From IMG/VR virus record IMGVR_UViG_3300030012_003031, positions 1 through 20,258 of that record: DNA of 20,258 bases. One strand, 5' to 3'. A program made the position numbers and the translations under genes. The stretch's first letter is position 1, and every line of letters starts with the position of its first letter. This DNA comes from a virus. Shown one piece after another: positions 1,149 to 19,578 of this stretch. A model generated the notes under the pieces. That model was given only the letters and a program-made list of their open reading frames with translations, ran no database searches and was not told where the DNA came from.

Positions 1149-1516
1149 TGGAACTCAAAGATTGGTTGAACTCTATCAACTTTACAAAAGAAGATTTGTC
1201 TGAGGACATGAAGTCCTATCCACCATATATCGTCAATCGTTGCTTGTCTGGACACATTGATTGTGTATTATTCGCTAATGAGATGAACAAGAATCACTTT
1301 CTTGATAAAGATATGCAATATAAATTTTATCTAAATAGTCTGAGGAAAAAGAAGAGATTTTCTCCCTGGCTCCGTAAGGATAAAGTCACGGATCTCGAAA
1401 GTGTCAAACAATACTATGGTTATAGTAATGAAAAGGCATGTCAAGCTCTGAAAATCCTGACTACAGAACAGATTAACTTTATTAAAAAACGACTTGACGT
1501 TGGAGGAACAAAATGA
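1148..1516 (+). CDS. 62: Clamp loader small subunit gp62
   Basis: This 122-residue protein matches cyanophage gp62, the small, non-ATPase subunit that joins gp44 to form the T4-type clamp loader. The recognisable block is YPPYIVNRCLSGHIDCVLFA (residues 25-44), followed by FANEMNKNHFLDK, then LRKKKRFSPWLRKDKV and YYGYSNEKA. Cyanophage gp62 is shorter than T4 gp62 (187 residues), so the length is normal for the group. It overlaps the upstream unknown gene by one base (TAATG) and the regA start by 4 bases. It is normally directly behind gp44; here a 1-kb gene separates them. Confidence 0.9.
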   Translation: MELKDWLNSINFTKEDLSEDMKSYPPYIVNRCLSGHIDCVLFANEMNKNHFLDKDMQYKFYLNSLRKKKRFSPWLRKDKVTDLESVKQYYGYSNEKACQALKILTTEQINFIKKRLDVGGTK

Positions 1517-1950
1517 GTAATACTGTGGAACCTCAGTATCACTGGACTCAGGATCAGATGATCGAAGTCCTACTTAATGAACCAGATGATTTCCTAAAGG
1601 TAAGAGAGACACTGACAAGAATAGGAGTTGCTTCTAGGAAAGAGAAGAAACTTTATCAGTCTTGTCATATTCTTCACAAGCAGGGCAAGTATTATATTGT
1701 TCATTTTAAGGAATTGTTTGCGCTGGATGGAAAGCACGCTAATCTTTCTATTAACGATGTTCAGCGTCGTAACCGTATTGTTCGTCTGCTTTCGGACTGG
1801 GGACTAATCTCTATTGTTGATGAGGATACTGTTCTTGATATTGCTCCTCTTAATCAAATCAAAGTTCTTTCTTACAAGGACAAGGGTGAGTGGATTCTTG
1901 AGCAGAAATACAATATTGGTAAGAAGGGTAAAAATCAGGAAACCGAGTGA
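1513..1950 (+). CDS. regA: Translational repressor RegA
   Basis: The protein is 145 residues long. From residue 17 it follows T4 RegA closely: MIEVLLNEPDDFLKVRETLT, then RIGVASRKEKKLYQSCHILH, then KGKYYIVHFKELFALDGK, and a later LLSDWGLISIV and YNIGKKGK tail. RegA binds the start regions of early mRNAs and blocks their translation, which shifts phage expression away from early proteins. A strong ribosome site (GGAGGA at 1502-1507) precedes the ATG. The N-terminus is about 16 residues longer than T4 RegA, so a start at the internal Met-17 cannot be excluded, but the ribosome site favours the given start. The gene closes the gp44-62-regA block. Confidence 0.95.
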   Translation: MSNTVEPQYHWTQDQMIEVLLNEPDDFLKVRETLTRIGVASRKEKKLYQSCHILHKQGKYYIVHFKELFALDGKHANLSINDVQRRNRIVRLLSDWGLISIVDEDTVLDIAPLNQIKVLSYKDKGEWILEQKYNIGKKGKNQETE

Positions 1951-1973
1951 CAGTTTGAAAACTGATCTATCAA

Positions 1974-2003
1974 GTCACATTTTTGTTTGGGTGGGCGTAT
2001 AAT
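1974..2003 (+). promoter_or_regulatory. Probable sigma-70 promoter for the restriction-modification pair
   Basis: A perfect TATAAT lies at 1998-2003. A GTCACA at 1974-1979 matches TTGACA at four of six positions with an 18-base spacer. Transcription would begin near 2010 and leave only about 18 bases before the GTG at 2028. It is the only promoter-like site in the 77-base gap after regA, where a new unit begins. Confidence 0.5.
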
Positions 2004-2027
2004 AGATCTGTTCGGGCAAACTAAACC

Positions 2028-2546
2028 GTGGCACTCCTTAAGTATATTGGTTCTGTCATCAATCTCGCCAATAGTTTCTCACAAGCAACACGTCCAAAAC
2101 ACGTTGGACAGATGAGTGAATTGATCCAACAATTCAGAGAGGATTGTGACACTCATGAGGTAGAAGATTGGGCAGATTATTATAATGGTGATGAGAAGAT
2201 TGATGTAGCAACAGATAAAAACTGGGAGGTTGTGCTTGTAATAAAAGAGAATCTTAATAAACTTACCAAGGATGATGTGCGTGAGTGGACACGAGATCTT
2301 ATCATCAATAAGACACATGCAGGTTTGCAAATTCAACTTGACGTGCTAAAATTATGTGCTGGTGATCAGTCCTATCGTCTTGCTAACGTAGTAGAAGAAT
2401 CAAAAGGGATTGATGGTTTCATTGGTGACGAACCAGTATCAATCAAACCTAACACATACAAGAAGACTATCAATGCTGGTAAGGAAATCATTCCTTATCG
2501 CATCATCTACTACACTAAAGGATCTAAAGGAGTTAAGATTGTATGA
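2028..2546 (+). CDS. Probable MjaI-family type II restriction endonuclease
   Basis: This 172-residue protein resembles the MjaI restriction endonuclease family (the archaeal founding member cuts CTAG). The features I recognise are TRPKHVGQMSELIQQF (residues 21-36), RDLIINKTHAGLQIQ (89-103), and EESKGIDGFIGDEPVSIKP (123-141). The last is a PD-(D/E)XK-type core with Asp-129 and the S-I-K of residues 138-140, where the usual acidic residue before x-Lys is Ser. Length fits the family. The start is GTG at 2028; an in-frame TAA at 2022-2024 rules out anything earlier and there is no good ribosome site, so the next Met (2112) is an alternative, though it would lose the VGQMS block. Its TGA overlaps the ATG of an adjacent DNA methyltransferase, the classic partner gene. 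Family identity is from memory of the motifs; the target site is inferred. Confidence 0.68.
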   Translation: MALLKYIGSVINLANSFSQATRPKHVGQMSELIQQFREDCDTHEVEDWADYYNGDEKIDVATDKNWEVVLVIKENLNKLTKDDVREWTRDLIINKTHAGLQIQLDVLKLCAGDQSYRLANVVEESKGIDGFIGDEPVSIKPNTYKKTINAGKEIIPYRIIYYTKGSKGVKIV

Positions 2547-3304
2547 ATGAAATCATCTGTTCAGATTCTCTCGTTGCTCTGAAAGAAATGGAAGATGAGT
2601 CTGTTGATATTGTTCTGACTTCACCTCCATATAATTATGGTATGGAGTACGATACTCATAATGATAATGGTGATGCTGACGAATACCTTGAGCAAATCCT
2701 TGCAGTCTTTGTTGAGTGTAAACGTGTGTTGAAACCTGGCGGCAGACTTATCGTTAACATTCAACCTAACTATAAACAGTATTCTCCTACTCATCATAAG
2801 ATTACTGAGCGAATGATCAGTGAAGGTATGATTTGGAGAGGAGAAATTATTTGGTTGAAGAATAATCTTAGAAAACTCACAGCATGGGGTAGTTGGAAGT
2901 CACCATCGTGTCCTTATCTATCATATCCTTTTGAGTTTATTGAAGTCTTCAGTAAAGATACTCTCAAGCATTCTGGAAACAAAGAAGATATTGACATTAC
3001 TAAAGATGAATTCATCAAATATGTAAATGGACATTGGGCAATGGCACCAGAGACTAAGATGAAAGACTATGGACATCCAGCAATGTTTCCTGAAGAATTA
3101 GTAGAACGTTGTTTGAAACTTTTTTCGTATAAAAATAATGTAATTCTTGATCCTTTCAATGGGGCGGGTACTACAACCTTTGTAGCAAATAAACTTGGCA
3201 GAAAATATATTGGTATTGATATGAGCGAAACTTACTGTGAGGTAGCAAAAAATAGAATTGAAAGATTTTCTCCCTTAGATAAATTTTTACAAGAAACCGA
3301 ATAA
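2543..3304 (+). CDS. Beta-class DNA methyltransferase, likely partner of the MjaI-like nuclease
   Basis: The protein has 253 residues. Motif IV, TSPPY, is at residues 26-30 and precedes the AdoMet-binding motif I, DPFNGAGTT, at 203-211, which is the beta-class order. S/TPPY with a serine is typical of N4-cytosine enzymes, though some N6-adenine enzymes also have it. RVLKPGGRLIVNI (61-73) and the TAWGSW...P block (113-124) are also typical of the family. It would transfer a methyl group from AdoMet to an amino group of a base in a short palindrome, here presumably the nuclease target. A strong AAAGGAG at about 2526-2532 precedes the ATG, in contrast to the nuclease. It could also be an orphan methylase, but the overlapping nuclease argues for a complete system. 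Confidence 0.9.
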   Translation: MNEIICSDSLVALKEMEDESVDIVLTSPPYNYGMEYDTHNDNGDADEYLEQILAVFVECKRVLKPGGRLIVNIQPNYKQYSPTHHKITERMISEGMIWRGEIIWLKNNLRKLTAWGSWKSPSCPYLSYPFEFIEVFSKDTLKHSGNKEDIDITKDEFIKYVNGHWAMAPETKMKDYGHPAMFPEELVERCLKLFSYKNNVILDPFNGAGTTTFVANKLGRKYIGIDMSETYCEVAKNRIERFSPLDKFLQETE

Positions 3305-3311
3305 AAATATA

Positions 3312-3336
3312 AGGGTTTTCCACACCCGCTTTTTTA
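3312..3336 (+). terminator. Weak intrinsic terminator after the methyltransferase
   Basis: GGGT at 3313-3316 can pair with ACCC at 3324-3327 around a 7-base loop, followed by a T run at 3330-3335. The stem is only four base pairs, so the call is tentative, but it lies just after the stop of the methyltransferase and before a new promoter. Confidence 0.35.
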
Positions 3337-3411: not shown

Positions 3412-3843
3412 ATGACTAACTTAATGAAGTTTAATGCTGCCGATTTGGATCAGTTGATGGATAAGATCACCCGCAATTCTATCGGGATTGATGACTATCT
3501 AAACAACGTCTTCCATACCCAAACACAAAGCAACTATCCCCCATATAATGTTGTACAATTAAACAATACTGAGACTAAACTTGAGATTGCTCTGGCTGGA
3601 TTTACAAAAGATGAAATCAAAGTTTATACAGAGTATGGTAAACTCACAGTCAAAGGGGAGAAAGAAGCAACCACCGAGGAGGGACAATACCTTCATAAAG
3701 GACTTGCTCATAGGAACTTTGAAAGATCATGGACACTTGCTGAGGGAACGGAAGTTACTAATGTGACTTTTGAAAATGGACTTCTCTGTGTTCTTGTTAA
3801 AAAGATAGTTCCTGAACACCATGCCCGAAAGGATTATCTTTAA
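3412..3843 (+). CDS. hsp20: Small heat shock protein, Hsp20/alpha-crystallin family
   Basis: The protein has 143 residues, a normal cyanophage Hsp20 length. The alpha-crystallin core runs from about residue 42 to 128: YNVVQLNNTETKLEIALAGF, KVYTEYGKLTVKGEK, NFERSWTL, and ENGLLCVLVKK, the 'NG-L-hydrophobic-hydrophobic' signature. The tail ends HHARKDYL, as in other cyanophage copies. Small Hsp20s hold unfolding proteins in an ATP-independent way; in cyanophages the role may be in scaffold folding or in stabilising host thylakoid complexes. A strong GGAG at 3401-3404 lies just before the ATG. It forms its own unit, with a promoter before it and a strong terminator behind. Confidence 0.95.
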   Translation: MTNLMKFNAADLDQLMDKITRNSIGIDDYLNNVFHTQTQSNYPPYNVVQLNNTETKLEIALAGFTKDEIKVYTEYGKLTVKGEKEATTEEGQYLHKGLAHRNFERSWTLAEGTEVTNVTFENGLLCVLVKKIVPEHHARKDYL

Positions 3844-3909: not shown

Positions 3910-5445
3910 ATGCCCTGGTTGAGTTTAGCTATTTTGTTCCCAATTGTGTGTTCTCTTGGGATCTTTTTTTTACCCGATGGAAACAAAGTAGTCAGGTGGT
4001 ACTCACTTGGTGTCACTCTGATTACATTCCTAATTACAGTTGTTGCTTATGTGACTGGATATGATCCATCCATAAGTGGTTTACAAATGTCTGAGAGAAT
4101 ACCTTGGATTCCTTCATTAGGACTTACATGGGCAGTCGGTGTAGACGGTTTGTCTATGCCTTTGATTCTTCTTACTAGTTTTATTACGAGTCTTGCAGCA
4201 CTCGCTGCGTGGCCTCTTACATTCAAACCAAAACTATTTTTCTTCTTACTACTACTAATGGATGGTGGGCAGATAATGGTTTTTGCAGTGCAAGATCTTA
4301 TTTTATTTTTCTTATCATGGGAACTAGAATTAGTGCCTGTTTATTTAATGATCGCTATCTATGGCGGCAAGAAACGCCAGTACGCTGCGACTAAGTTTAT
4401 TTTGTACACCGCAGGTAGTTCTCTGTTTATTCTCCTTGCAGGACTCGCTATGGGTTTCTATGGTGGAGGAACTCCTAACTTTGAATATTCATATCTTGCA
4501 GAGCAGGGTTTTCCTAAGAATTTTCAACTTTGGTGTTATGCAGCATTTTTAATTTCTTTTGGAGTTAAATTACCCATTGTTCCATTACACACCTGGTTAC
4601 CTGATGCACATGGTGAAGCCACTGCACCAGTACACATGCTGCTTGCAGGTATTCTTCTTAAAATGGGTGGATATGCTCTTCTAAGATTTAATTGTCAACT
4701 TCTTCCCGAAGCACACTCAGTGTTTGCACCACTTCTCATTGTTTTTGGTGTAGTTAATATTATCTACGCTGCACTAACTTCATTTGCTCAAAGAAATTTG
4801 AAACGTAAGATTGCTTATAGTTCAATCAGTCACATGGGTTTTGTTTTGATTGGTATCGGAACATACAGTGCTCTCGGAACTAGCGGTGCAATGTTGCAGA
4901 TGATTAGTCATGGACTAATTGGTGCATCACTGTTTTTCCTTGTGGGTGCTACCTATGACAGAACACATACCCTTCAACTTAATGAAATGGGTGGTGTTGG
5001 TAAGAGTATGAAAGTAATGTTCGCTCTTTGGGTGGCATGTTCTATGGCATCTCTTGCCCTTCCTGGTATGAGTGGATTTATCAGTGAACTAATGGTTTTT
5101 GCTGGATTTGTTACAGATGCAACATATACTATTTCTTTCAGAATAATTATATGTCTTCTGTCTGCTATTGGTGTTATCCTTACCCCAATTTATTTACTTT
5201 CTATGCTACGAGAAATATTCTTTGGTAAAGAAAATAAAGAACTTATCGATCACGCTAATCTTGTAGATGCGGAACCTCGTGAAGTATATATCGTTAGTGC
5301 TTTATTAGTGCCAATTATTGCTATTGGTTTATTTCCAAAAATCATGATTGATTCATATAAGAGTTCAGTAGAAGCATTAGTTGAGAGAGATAAGTCGGCA
5401 TTGGTAGTATATTCTAATAAAGTTTATGCTCCTCCAACTATCTAA
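3910..5445 (+). CDS. ndhD: NAD(P)H dehydrogenase (NDH-1) subunit 4, NdhD1-type, full length
   Basis: The protein has 511 residues and is close to cyanobacterial NdhD1, a proton-pumping membrane subunit of the thylakoid NDH-1 complex used in respiration and cyclic electron flow around photosystem I. It is very hydrophobic, with about 14 membrane segments. Key residues of the antiporter-like channel are kept: Glu-138 in [10 protein letters not shown], Lys-220 in [20 protein letters not shown], Lys-251 in [13 protein letters not shown], and Glu-393 in [10 protein letters not shown]. It lacks only some residues at the N-terminus and some at the C-terminus relative to host proteins (about 520-535). 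A Y-to-D change near residue 118 (MDGGQ, hosts usually YGGQ, from memory) lies in a membrane segment. It stands alone between two terminators with its own promoter, so it is a moron-like auxiliary gene of host origin. No ribosome site is evident. Confidence 0.96.
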
Positions 5446-5546: not shown

Positions 5547-5909
5547 ATGACTGTAAAACTTTTGCTGCTGAAGTCCGGTGAGGACGTGATTGCTGATGTA
5601 AGTGAGATGGCAGTGGGTGAAGATGCCGACAAAAAAGTCCTTGGATATTTTCTTGATAAACCCTGTGTTGTCAAGATTCTGAATGCTGAGCAGCAAGAAG
5701 AAGGAGATAAAAAGGCAGCGTTTAATGTATCAATGTATCCATGGTGCCCTCTTGCGGAAGACAGTGTTATTCCTCTTCCTGTAGACTGGGTGGTAACAAT
5801 CGTTGAACCTAAGCAAAAACTCAAAGAAATGTATTTGGAGGATGTAGTCGGAAATGGACAAACTAGTGAAGGTGATTCTACTGACGAGCAACCAGAGACT
5901 GATCAGTGA
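5547..5909 (+). CDS. Small conserved cyanophage protein, Sm-like, member 1 of a related pair
   Basis: This 120-residue protein starts VKLLLLKSGEDVIADVSEM (residues 3-21), a beta-strand/turn pattern of the Sm-like kind, continues FLDKPCVVKI, MYPWCPLAEDSVIPLP and VVTIVEPKQKLKEMYLE, then ends in an acidic, probably disordered tail (DSTDEQPETDQ). I recall this as a conserved cyanophage protein before gp43 without an assigned role. The same order of blocks appears in the next gene, so the two look like tandem paralogs. Sm-like proteins bind RNA as rings, but whether this one does is unknown. It opens the block leading to DNA polymerase and overlaps the next gene by 56 bases. Confidence 0.88.
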   Translation: MTVKLLLLKSGEDVIADVSEMAVGEDADKKVLGYFLDKPCVVKILNAEQQEEGDKKAAFNVSMYPWCPLAEDSVIPLPVDWVVTIVEPKQKLKEMYLEDVVGNGQTSEGDSTDEQPETDQ

Positions 5910-6111
5910 AATTGAAGAGGTAGGTGCTGAGATTGGTGAACCTGATTGCAAGTTGATCAATCCCATGGAAATTTGTGAGGGTAACATGCTTGCTCCATGG
6001 ATGATGGATCACACGATGCAAGACACTTTTATGATTAGTTCGGACAAGATCATCACACTTGCTGATCCTATGCCAACATTGCTTGAAAAATACCTAGAAC
6101 AGACTAAATGA
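5854..6111 (+). CDS. Small conserved cyanophage protein, Sm-like, member 2 of a related pair
   Basis: This 85-residue protein begins inside the acidic tail of the previous gene and overlaps it in another frame (5854-5909). A GGAGG at 5837-5841 supports the start. Its blocks match the preceding protein in order: VKVILLTSNQRLISEIEEV against VKLLLLKSGEDVIADVSEM, INPMEIC against DKPCVVKI, LAPW against MYPW, and IITLADPMPTLLEKYLEQ against VVTIVEPKQKLKEMYLE. It lacks the acidic tail. It ends in an ATGA overlap with the DNA polymerase gene, so the two are co-translated. Function is not known; the Sm-like fold is inferred. Confidence 0.88.
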   Translation: MDKLVKVILLTSNQRLISEIEEVGAEIGEPDCKLINPMEICEGNMLAPWMMDHTMQDTFMISSDKIITLADPMPTLLEKYLEQTK

Positions 6112-8606
6112 AATTTTACACCAACGTTCAGCTGATCGGTAATCAGTTTTTGGTTCGTGGAGTTGAAGACGGAAAGAGATTTGAGATTCGGGACAGTGAA
6201 TTCTGTCCGACTCTTTTCGTCAAAAGTAAAAGAGAAACCAAGTACAAAACGCTGGATGGTGAGAGTGTAGAACCTATCCAACCTGGACAGGTTCGTGATT
6301 GTCGTGAGTTCTATAAAAAGTATCAGGATGTAGATGGTTTTGCCATTTATGGCAATGATCGGTACATCTATCAATACATCTCTGAGAAGTATCCTCAGGA
6401 TGAAGTCAAATTTGACATCAGTAAGATTAAACTGGTGACACTTGATATTGAGACTACTGCTGAAAAAGGATTCCCTGATGTAGAATCTGCATCAGAAGAG
6501 ATTCTGGCAATTACTATTCAGGATTACACTACTAAGAAGATTATCACTTGGGGTGTAAAACCATTCATTAATAAACAAAAGAACGTAACTTATCACCATT
6601 GTGCTGATGAACATAGCCTCCTGAATAGTTTCATCAACCATTGGATGCAGGATGTGCCTGATGTCATTACAGGTTGGAACATTCAACTGTTCGATATCCC
6701 GTATATCTGTAAGCGTCTTAATAGGGTGCTTGGAGAGAAATTGATGAAACGCTTCTCACCGTGGGGGCTGGTGAGTGAAGGTGAGATGTATATTCAGGGA
6801 CGTAAACACATCATGTTTGATGTTGGTGGCGTTACTCAACTTGATTATCTCGATCTGTATAAGAAGTTTACTTATAAGGCACAGGAATCATATCGCCTGG
6901 ATTATATTGCCAGTGTAGAACTGGGACAGAAGAAACTGGATCACTCCGAATACGATACGTTTAAGGACTTCTATACAAAAGGATGGCAGAAGTTTATTGA
7001 ATATAACATCGTTGACGTAGAATTGGTTGACAGGTTAGAAGATAAGATGAAACTTATCGAACTTGCTCTAACTATGGCTTATGATGCTAAGGTGAATTAT
7101 AACGATGTGTTCTATCAAGTTCGCATGTGGGATAACATCATTTATAACTATTTAAAAAAGAGGGATATTGTTATTCCTCAGAAACGCCAGACGGACAAGA
7201 ACGAAAAGTACGCAGGTGCTTATGTCAAGGAACCAATTCCGGGAAAGTATGACTGGGTTGTCAGTTTTGATCTTAACAGTCTTTATCCTCATCTTATTAT
7301 GCAATACAATATCTCACCAGAGACGCTCCTGGATGAGAGACACCCAACAGTTACCGTTGATAAAATACTTAATGAGGAGATAAATTTTGAACTCTATAAG
7401 GACAATGCAATTTGTGCTAACGGTGCAATGTATCGCAAAGATGTTCGTGGGTTCTTGCCTGAGTTGATGGAGAAGATGTATGGAGATCGTGTTGTCTTCA
7501 AAAAGCGAATGCTCACTGCCAAGCAGCAGTATGAGAAGACGCCTACTAAAGCACTTGAAAAAGAAATCGCCCGATGTAACAACATTCAAATGGCGAAAAA
7601 GATTTCTCTTAACTCTGCTTATGGTGCTATTGGTAATCAATACTTCCGCTATTATAAATTAGAGAACGCAGAAGCGATTACTCTTTCGGGGCAGGTTTCA
7701 ATCCGTTGGATTGAGCAGAAGATGAATAAGTATTTAAATAATCTGTTAAAAACAGAAAACGATGATTATGTCATAGCATCTGACACTGATTCCATTTATC
7801 TTAATATGGGCCCTGTCGTTGACAAATTTCTTGCTAATCGCTCTAGTGACAAAGCAAAAGTAGTAGAACTACTTGATATGATTTGCCGCGACAAGCTTGA
7901 GCCGTATATTGACGATTGTTATAGCAATCTTGCGACATATGTATCTGCATATGATCAAAAGATGCAAATGAAACGTGAGAATATTGCTGATCGTGGTATT
8001 TGGACTGCAAAAAAACGATATATTCTCAATGTATGGGACAGTGAAGGTGTTCGATATGAAGAACCTAAACTAAAGGTGATGGGTATTGAATCTGTTAAAT
8101 CTTCTACTCCTGCTCCTTGTCGTCAGATGTTGAAAGATGCATTTAAAATTTTAATGACTGGTTCTGAAGATGAAATGATTAAGTTTATCGACTCTAAACG
8201 TGAAGAGTTTAAGAAGTTACCCCCTGAAGAAGTTTCTTTTCCCCGATCTGTTTCAGATGTTATAAAATATAAGTCTCACGCGAGCATCTATACTAAAGGA
8301 ACTCCTATTCATGCTAGAGGCGCACTTCTCTATAATCACTATATTAAAGAGAAAAAACTTGATGCTAAATATTCTCTTATTCAGAATGGTGAGAAGATTA
8401 AGTTCTGCTATCTAAAAAAACCAAATCACATTCATGAAAATGTCATTTCATTTATTCAAGACTTTCCTAGAGAATTAAACCTTGACAAGTATGTTGATTA
8501 CGATTTACAATTTGATAAGTCATTCCTTGAACCTCTAAAAGCCATCCTTGATGCTATTGGATGGAGCGTGGAAAAAACTGTAAACCTTGAATTATTTTTC
8601 GGTTAA
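6108..8606 (+). CDS. 43: Family B DNA polymerase gp43
   Basis: The 832-residue protein is the phage replicative polymerase with proofreading. Exonuclease motifs: DIE at residues 113-115, GWNIQLFDIP at 189-198 with Asp-196, and YNIVD at 299-303. Polymerase motifs: A, DLNSLYP at 388-394; B, KKISLNSAYG at 497-506; C, ASDTDS at 557-562; and a KKRY in the palm/thumb near residue 655. The C-terminus ends NLELFFG, a short hydrophobic tail of the sort that binds the gp45 clamp. Slightly shorter than T4 gp43 (898), with all catalytic residues intact. No split or intron is seen, although cyanophage gp43 is sometimes interrupted. Start ATG overlaps the previous stop. Confidence 0.99.
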   Translation: MKFYTNVQLIGNQFLVRGVEDGKRFEIRDSEFCPTLFVKSKRETKYKTLDGESVEPIQPGQVRDCREFYKKYQDVDGFAIYGNDRYIYQYISEKYPQDEVKFDISKIKLVTLDIETTAEKGFPDVESASEEILAITIQDYTTKKIITWGVKPFINKQKNVTYHHCADEHSLLNSFINHWMQDVPDVITGWNIQLFDIPYICKRLNRVLGEKLMKRFSPWGLVSEGEMYIQGRKHIMFDVGGVTQLDYLDLYKKFTYKAQESYRLDYIASVELGQKKLDHSEYDTFKDFYTKGWQKFIEYNIVDVELVDRLEDKMKLIELALTMAYDAKVNYNDVFYQVRMWDNIIYNYLKKRDIVIPQKRQTDKNEKYAGAYVKEPIPGKYDWVVSFDLNSLYPHLIMQYNISPETLLDERHPTVTVDKILNEEINFELYKDNAICANGAMYRKDVRGFLPELMEKMYGDRVVFKKRMLTAKQQYEKTPTKALEKEIARCNNIQMAKKISLNSAYGAIGNQYFRYYKLENAEAITLSGQVSIRWIEQKMNKYLNNLLKTENDDYVIASDTDSIYLNMGPVVDKFLANRSSDKAKVVELLDMICRDKLEPYIDDCYSNLATYVSAYDQKMQMKRENIADRGIWTAKKRYILNVWDSEGVRYEEPKLKVMGIESVKSSTPAPCRQMLKDAFKILMTGSEDEMIKFIDSKREEFKKLPPEEVSFPRSVSDVIKYKSHASIYTKGTPIHARGALLYNHYIKEKKLDAKYSLIQNGEKIKFCYLKKPNHIHENVISFIQDFPRELNLDKYVDYDLQFDKSFLEPLKAILDAIGWSVEKTVNLELFFG

Positions 8607-18620: not shown

Positions 18621-19578
18621 TTCTAAGTTCATCGGGATTATTTCTCCACGCTTAGGAAAGTTTAAGAGAGTAAAAGCAAATCTTTACAACTTCCGTTGTC
18701 CTATCTGTGGCGACTCGAAGAAGAATAAAAACAAAACACGGGGTTACATTTACTCTGTGAAAGCAAATACAAACTTCAAGTGTCACAATTGTGGTGCTTC
18801 AATGTCTTTTAATAATTTTTTGAAGCATGTAGATCCTCCGACTCATAAACAATATTCATTAGAGAAATTTAAGGAGGGACACTCAGGTGGTAGAAATTTT
18901 GTTGTTGAAGAACCTGATTTTAAGTTTGAGGCACCAAAATTTAAAAAGAGTTTGAATCTTCCCAAAGCTTGTGATAATGCTAGATCAGATGGATATTTGA
19001 CTGCAAGAAAACTTGATACTTCTCAGTTTTACTATGCAAAAAAATTTAAAAAATTTGTAAATACACTCAAACCAACCTTTGATGATACTCGTTATGATGA
19101 GGAGAGAATCATTATTCCAATCTATTACAATAAAAATCTGATTGGACTTCAGGGAAGATCTATAGATCGCAACCCTGTTAAATATATCACTGTGATGCTT
19201 GATGATGATGCACCAAAAATCTACGGACTGGATAACATCCGAAAAGATGCTCCAGTCTATGTTACAGAAGGACCTTTTGACAGCACGTTCCTTCGCAACG
19301 CGATTGCAATGTGCGGTGCTGATGCTGATGTTAGTAAGTGGGGGATTAGCAATCCTGTGTGGATTTATGATAACGAACCACGCAACAGAGAGATTGTCAA
19401 TCGAATCAGCAAAACAATCGATAGTGGCGACTCCGTAGTTATTTTTCCATCATCCATGGATGAGAAAGATATCAACGACATGGTGATCGCTGGACATGAT
19501 GTTCAGAAGATTGTAGAATGTAACACTTACAGTGGCTTAGAAGCAAAACTTAAATTCAACACCTGGAAGAAAATATGA
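18607..19578 (+). CDS. 61: DNA primase gp61
   Basis: The 323-residue protein is the T4-type primase that makes RNA primers with gp41 helicase (T4 gp61 has 342). A zinc-binding site is at the N-terminus: C-P-I-C at 31-34 and C-H-N-C at 59-62. A TOPRIM domain follows: VYVTEGPFDSTFLR, ALIMCGAD-like block (AIAMCGADAD), IYDNEPRNREI and FPSSMDEKDINDM. YIYSVKANTNFKCHNCGA is typical of cyanophage gp61. The start overlaps the previous gene by 14 bases and its TGA overlaps the nrdA ATG. Confidence 0.96.
   Translation: MDHIDSKFIGIISPRLGKFKRVKANLYNFRCPICGDSKKNKNKTRGYIYSVKANTNFKCHNCGASMSFNNFLKHVDPPTHKQYSLEKFKEGHSGGRNFVVEEPDFKFEAPKFKKSLNLPKACDNARSDGYLTARKLDTSQFYYAKKFKKFVNTLKPTFDDTRYDEERIIIPIYYNKNLIGLQGRSIDRNPVKYITVMLDDDAPKIYGLDNIRKDAPVYVTEGPFDSTFLRNAIAMCGADADVSKWGISNPVWIYDNEPRNREIVNRISKTIDSGDSVVIFPSSMDEKDINDMVIAGHDVQKIVECNTYSGLEAKLKFNTWKKI

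Follow-up and report, generated by a model that had tools for sequence, protein, structure and literature searches.

Among the described systems close to the pair of genes considered here are MthZI of Methanothermobacter, whose plasmid we take to be pFZ1, and MjaI of Methanocaldococcus jannaschii, both of which are CTAG systems with a nuclease of family PF09568, the family that is also found in our sequence. The recognition site of MthZI is CTAG, and its 4mC methylase has been characterised (PMC5867850, citing Nolling and de Vos 1992). Both are plasmid or cellular systems, whereas the pair described below is phage-borne; restriction enzymes are mostly presented as a means by which bacteria defend themselves against phages, and here lytic ocean phages carry one. 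Virus-borne restriction enzymes are familiar from chloroviruses of the PBCV-1 type, where their presumed task is to break down the DNA of the host as infection begins, while a role in exclusion was tested and not supported (PMC7019647). Chloroviruses likewise encode nuclease and methyltransferase side by side, but these viruses and their hosts are unrelated to ours and their nuclease is packaged in the virion, which that of the cyanophages is not known to be. Among T4-like cyanophages, Syn19 also holds a nuclease-methyltransferase pair, of RsaI type (R.RsaI endonuclease and methylase), with a different nuclease annotation and GTAC as its expected target; GTAC is not unusually depleted in Syn19.

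How does the present locus compare? The stretch analysed (the window) is 20,258 bases long and belongs to a viral record of 43,947 bases from a T4-like cyanophage; its best GenBank phage match by aligned length is S-SM2 (56% covered, 78.6% identity). The T4-like replication core runs clamp loader gp62, RegA, cassette, Hsp20, gp43, UvsX and gp41 (Table 1), and the two cassette genes, which the initial annotation had placed in overlap within a cyanophage core region, were both found as open reading frames sharing ATGA. The ends of the cassette are clean, a relative with 95% identical gp43 (L059) having a 2OG-oxygenase gene at the same junction, where other relatives hold ndhD (L102), a gene for a GmrSD-type protein (L078) or one for a Mom-family protein (L103); the regA-hsp20 junction is thus a cargo site. 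Most homologous cassettes, wherever inserted, have a TATAAT-like box at a similar distance before the nuclease gene, which suggests that the cassette may carry its own promoter. Two neighbouring genes deserve mention in their own right: a full-length NdhD-like NADH dehydrogenase gene (complex I antiporter-type, 511 aa) at 3910-5445, right after hsp20 (in L102 it lies between regA and hsp20), and a gene for a DruA-like (Druantia) protein at 84-1148 beside the clamp loader, where S-SM2 and SynMITS9220M01 have, in the corresponding position, a gene annotated as 'putative cytoplasmic protein'.

Table 1. Features of the cassette and its flanks, in window coordinates
Feature	Coordinates	Strand	Basis
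regA, left neighbour of cassette	1513..1950	+	Pfam Translat_reg, 3.4e-44
Inserted cassette, extent between regA and hsp20	1951..3312	+	Homology to cassette-less L059 and S-SM2 resumes at about 3313; in S-CAM3 and L006 this junction is likewise occupied by the cassette
TATAAT box 5' of nuclease gene, putative promoter element	1998..2003	+	Read from sequence; similar box in homologues
MjaI-family type II restriction endonuclease gene, 172 aa, GTG start	2028..2546	+	Pfam RE_MjaI, PADLOC REase_II, likeness to pFZ1 enzyme, dN/dS
Putative active-site segment: D129 (2412-2414), S138-I-K140 (2439-2447), E153 (2484-2486)	2412..2486	+	Conservation; catalytic role putative
Beta-class DNA methyltransferase gene, probable CTAG N4-cytosine methyltransferase, 253 aa, ATG start	2543..3304	+	Pfam, PADLOC, motifs, distant pFZ1 match
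hsp20, right neighbour of cassette	3412..3843	+	Pfam HSP20, 3.2e-14

The assignment of the first product to the MjaI type, as half of a complete pair, had been made from motifs, and the Pfam run then suggested for it bears the assignment out: the protein matches RE_MjaI (PF09568) over its full length (profile positions 3-164 of 164; E=8e-44, 149.8 bits against a cut-off of 22.7), and PADLOC REase_II as well. Its start codon is backed by homologues that start at the same position, with ATG or GTG. All of 18 phage homologues share the residues D129, S138, K140 and E153, which the pFZ1 enzyme has kept too, and the SxK-x12-E spacing resembles active sites of the NgoMIV/Cfr10I type, which we regard as a lead. 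The predicted structure is of moderate confidence (pLDDT 73), and when it was compared with solved nucleases for a PD-(D/E)xK fold, the best PDB match, restriction endonuclease 3ndh, was not significant (E=0.8). Pairwise dN/dS values of 0.06-0.20 among the nucleases (0.06-0.16 between that of the window and its homologues) place the gene under strong purifying selection, and the same holds for the methyltransferase (0.05-0.15). The latter matches Pfam N6_N4_Mtase (PF01555; 2.2e-45) and PADLOC MTase_II (Type II MTases; 3.1e-72), and its TSPPY motif (2618-2632, residues 26-30) precedes the SAM-binding motif DPFNGAGTT (3149-3175, residues 203-211), the order of the beta class to which it had initially been ascribed. 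TSPPY and a distant similarity to the pFZ1 methyltransferase point to m4C in CTAG as the probable mark.

The only plasmid matches of the nuclease were the MjaI-family enzyme of pFZ1 and near copies in Methanothermobacter, at 40% identity and with the D...SxK...E residues in common, and a pattern-limited alignment scan of genome contigs found no cellular relative of either protein. Both systems have a TSPPY methyltransferase as partner, but that of the window is shorter (253 versus 355 aa, 25% identity), and the pFZ1 genes are convergent whereas those of the phage are co-directional and overlap. Closer relatives lie in cyanophages, although the initial annotation knew of none of this family in T4-like ones. 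That statement did not hold, since ten GenBank/RefSeq records found by tblastn, representing the four phages S-RIM32, S-H9-2, S-CAM3 and S-SM2, carry the nuclease annotated as a restriction enzyme, and the presence of the pair in cyanophages was thus already in databases. Their 'type II R/M system 1' belongs to the same families as the window genes. S-CAM3, S-RIM32 and S-H9-2 have both (nuclease 83-85%, methyltransferase about 90% identical to those of the window), S-CAM3 at the same regA-hsp20 junction as the window phage, S-RIM32 and S-H9-2 at the psbA locus, between psbA and a thioredoxin gene. S-SM2 has a nuclease only, 60% identical to that of the window and at another locus with no adjoining methyltransferase, and its regA-hsp20 junction is empty. 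All told, adjacent nuclease-methyltransferase pairs occur in three GenBank phages and in more than 15 metagenomic contigs (many in IMG/VR), and separate, adjacent genes kept together in this way are the orthodox layout of a type II restriction-modification system. A GC-rich (52%) viral contig, L178, holds a related methyltransferase (61%) beside a nuclease frame broken after 107 aa (5876-7135).

If these genes form a CTAG system, have their carriers been marked by it? Many prokaryotes avoid CTAG irrespective of their restriction enzymes (PMC4687349), and controls are therefore essential. CTAG was counted in fetched sequence and compared with a Markov expectation; in sixteen cyanophages or large contigs checked to be without the nuclease, of each of which 27-200 kb were counted, observed/expected lay between 0.76 and 1.12. 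In view of these near-normal values, general CTAG avoidance was rejected as the explanation of the depletion in carriers. The isolates with both genes gave 0.07 (S-RIM32), 0.13 (S-H9-2) and 0.18 (S-CAM3), and S-SM2, with the nuclease alone, has no CTAG in 190,789 bases against about 299 expected (0.00). When all 136 reverse-complement tetramer classes were tested with none preselected, CTAG was the only class among those listed in which carriers and non-carriers did not overlap. It was also the sole strong outlier of S-SM2, where it lay 8.1 log2 units under the mean of the non-carriers and the next class at 0.2. An exact rank test of the four carrier isolates against twelve isolate non-carriers gave p=0.0005, a value that ignores relatedness, S-RIM32 and S-H9-2 sharing both locus and gene order. 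Where the genome of Bellamy was aligned with that of S-SM2, none of 193 CTAG sites was kept, against 0.32-0.47 of other palindromes; aligned with the window phage, 11 of 39 were kept. Metagenomic loci follow the same trend, with CTAG at 0.35 for pairs, 0.08 for nuclease only and 0.89 for neither. The correspondence is imperfect, as two carriers besides the window phage are not depleted (G006, 0.85; L008, 14 sites against 12.6 expected), while four short fragments without a visible nuclease (L065, L121, L126, L133) and two contigs with the methyltransferase only (L182, L183) are CTAG-poor.

This loss in carriers, together with the 40% identity to the MthZI plasmid nuclease, makes CTAG the likely target of the cassette, as the initial annotation had inferred, and indicates that the nuclease would be functional in those carriers that erased CTAG. 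Genome marks alone thus name a nuclease target and suggest activity, and a search for carriage-linked loss of one short word offers a general way to detect nucleases borne by phages, together with the sites that they cut. The open-licence literature yielded no paper that connects CTAG with cyanophages, and the carriage-linked loss and the CTAG-free lineage with the nuclease only, which raise the system above an annotated pair, are new as far as that literature was searched. Complete or near-complete losses of other tetramers were seen among S-RIM32, S-H9-2, Syn19, S-SCSM1, S-RIM12, S-B05 and S-CAM7: CCGG is absent from the counted sequence of several cyanophages, and in S-CAM7 GGCC is absent and CATG strongly reduced.

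The nuclease-only state of S-SM2 has company. Loss of METHYLTRANSFERASE is seen in contigs L151-L155, where a helicase gene comes straight after the nuclease gene and no methyltransferase gene separates the two; in S-SM2 an unrelated 379-aa gene takes that place, and no PF01555, PF00145 or PF02086 methyltransferase was found in the whole S-SM2 record. Related contigs with partly the same neighbourhood, among them L169 and L174-L177, have both nuclease and methyltransferase. In a tree of 25 nucleases, rooted by one long outgroup branch, the nuclease-only sequences form one clade (96/93) within the pair-carrying ones, as would be expected had the methyltransferase been lost only once, and their nucleases are still under purifying selection (dN/dS 0.07-0.11). 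With a single such clade arising among the pair carriers and its nuclease still selected for, it is probable that erasure of the sites came first and loss of the methyltransferase second, and since several pair-carrying relatives are already CTAG-poor (L175 has 2 CTAG against 26 expected), the probable order is carriage of the pair, loss of CTAG sites and then loss of the methyltransferase. Two members of the clade, L151 and L154, have two CTAG each, which would call for a methyltransferase at another place or for tolerance of some sites. We lean slightly towards the view that a lytic lineage has in this way made itself a nuclease-only weapon, erasing all its own CTAG, dropping the methyltransferase and being immune by sequence alone, with pair carriers, the window phage included, at various stages of the same path. 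Such a path would show, in a clear and testable way, how a phage can keep a DNA-cutting enzyme when the customary antidote is gone.

What would the cassette do for its carriers? It is probable that it is a working phage-borne type II restriction-modification system targeting CTAG and used against the DNA of host and rival phages. The methyltransferase would mark CTAG, probably as N4-methylcytosine, on newly made phage DNA, and the nuclease, expressed during infection, would cut CTAG wherever it is unmarked, both in the chromosome of the host and in rival phages; the latter, with the 1.4-4.4 CTAG per kb (hundreds per genome) of non-carrier cyanophages, would offer ample targets. In long-term carriers the nuclease might also damage imperfectly methylated phage DNA, so that CTAG would be lost by selection, and S-SM2 and its kin, with no or almost no CTAG, would be the end point at which the methyltransferase is lost and the nuclease alone kept. 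The identity of the genes, their intact motifs, the purifying selection, the CTAG loss that goes with carriage and the clade with the nuclease only are observed, whereas we infer catalysis, m4C, when the genes are expressed and that they are directed at hosts or rivals. The existing isolates S-SM2, S-CAM3, S-RIM32 and S-H9-2 make direct tests possible.

The main rival to this scheme is counter-defence driven by hosts that hold a CTAG enzyme, the methyltransferase having been gained for protection, the nuclease being a passenger and CTAG loss ordinary avoidance. Phages do commonly avoid host restriction sites, even to complete loss (PMC6286503), other cyanophages are without any CCGG or GGCC, and methyltransferase-only contigs (L182, L183) exist. 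In the S-SM2 clade, however, it is the methyltransferase that was lost and the nuclease, still under purifying selection, that was kept, which is the opposite of what counter-defence predicts. CTAG loss, moreover, tracks carriage of the nuclease and not the host used for isolation: both S-H9-2 and Sf-CH5 were isolated on WH8102, yet they stand at 0.13 and 1.12. We consider this explanation unlikely. That the cassette is selfish or inert cargo, moving among phages and persisting by post-segregational damage or by chance with no benefit to the phage, would agree with its different loci in different phages, with the regA-hsp20 hotspot and with the undepleted CTAG of the window phage. It is nevertheless highly improbable, given that both genes are under strong purifying selection and that phages without the methyltransferase have still kept the nuclease, which speaks for use; addiction needs the methyltransferase.

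Another alternative concerns the window phage itself, which, unlike the four isolates, is not depleted: its record has 79 CTAG against 95 expected in about 44 kb (0.83). CTAG depletion is uninformative on activity in this phage, as in G006 and L008, because none of them is depleted, and it is possible that the window nuclease is weak or dead. In its full form, with the nuclease inactive and only the methyltransferase of importance, for example in regulation or protection, this alternative is very unlikely: all putative catalytic residues are intact and the dN/dS values against homologues given above are low. On its side, time for change was available, since a different word has been purged even from the cassette. 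GACC/GGTC occurs once (at 19271) in the 43,947 bases of the record (the window plus L248 and L249), both strands considered, against about 171 expected, and not at all in the cassette, where homologues have 3-9; ndhD is purged as well. The simplest reading is that the window phage presumably relies on full protection by its methyltransferase. Recent arrival of the cassette as the reason for normal CTAG is favoured by the absence of the cassette from this junction in L059, but weakened by the cassette being already as free of GACC/GGTC as the rest.

The missing GACC/GGTC suggests strong nuclease pressure on GGTC. L059 has 1 against 19 expected, and L090 and L086 are also low, the other cyanophages checked being normal. 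Beyond the window, at 23235-23699 of the record, lies a gene whose 154-aa product resembles homing endonucleases in PADLOC (HEase, 3.1e-6) and is a possible candidate for the cause of the loss. The methyltransferase-only contigs have the same methyltransferase as the cassette, without a visible nuclease (L182 1423-2178, L183 973-1728), downstream of a gene that by eye only resembles SAICAR synthetase (purC), between hsp20 and gp43. At the regA-hsp20 junction of L103 (645-2068), the Mom-family DNA-modification protein stands beside a 189-aa protein with weak similarity to restriction enzymes, possibly another phage-borne pair of modification enzyme and nuclease.
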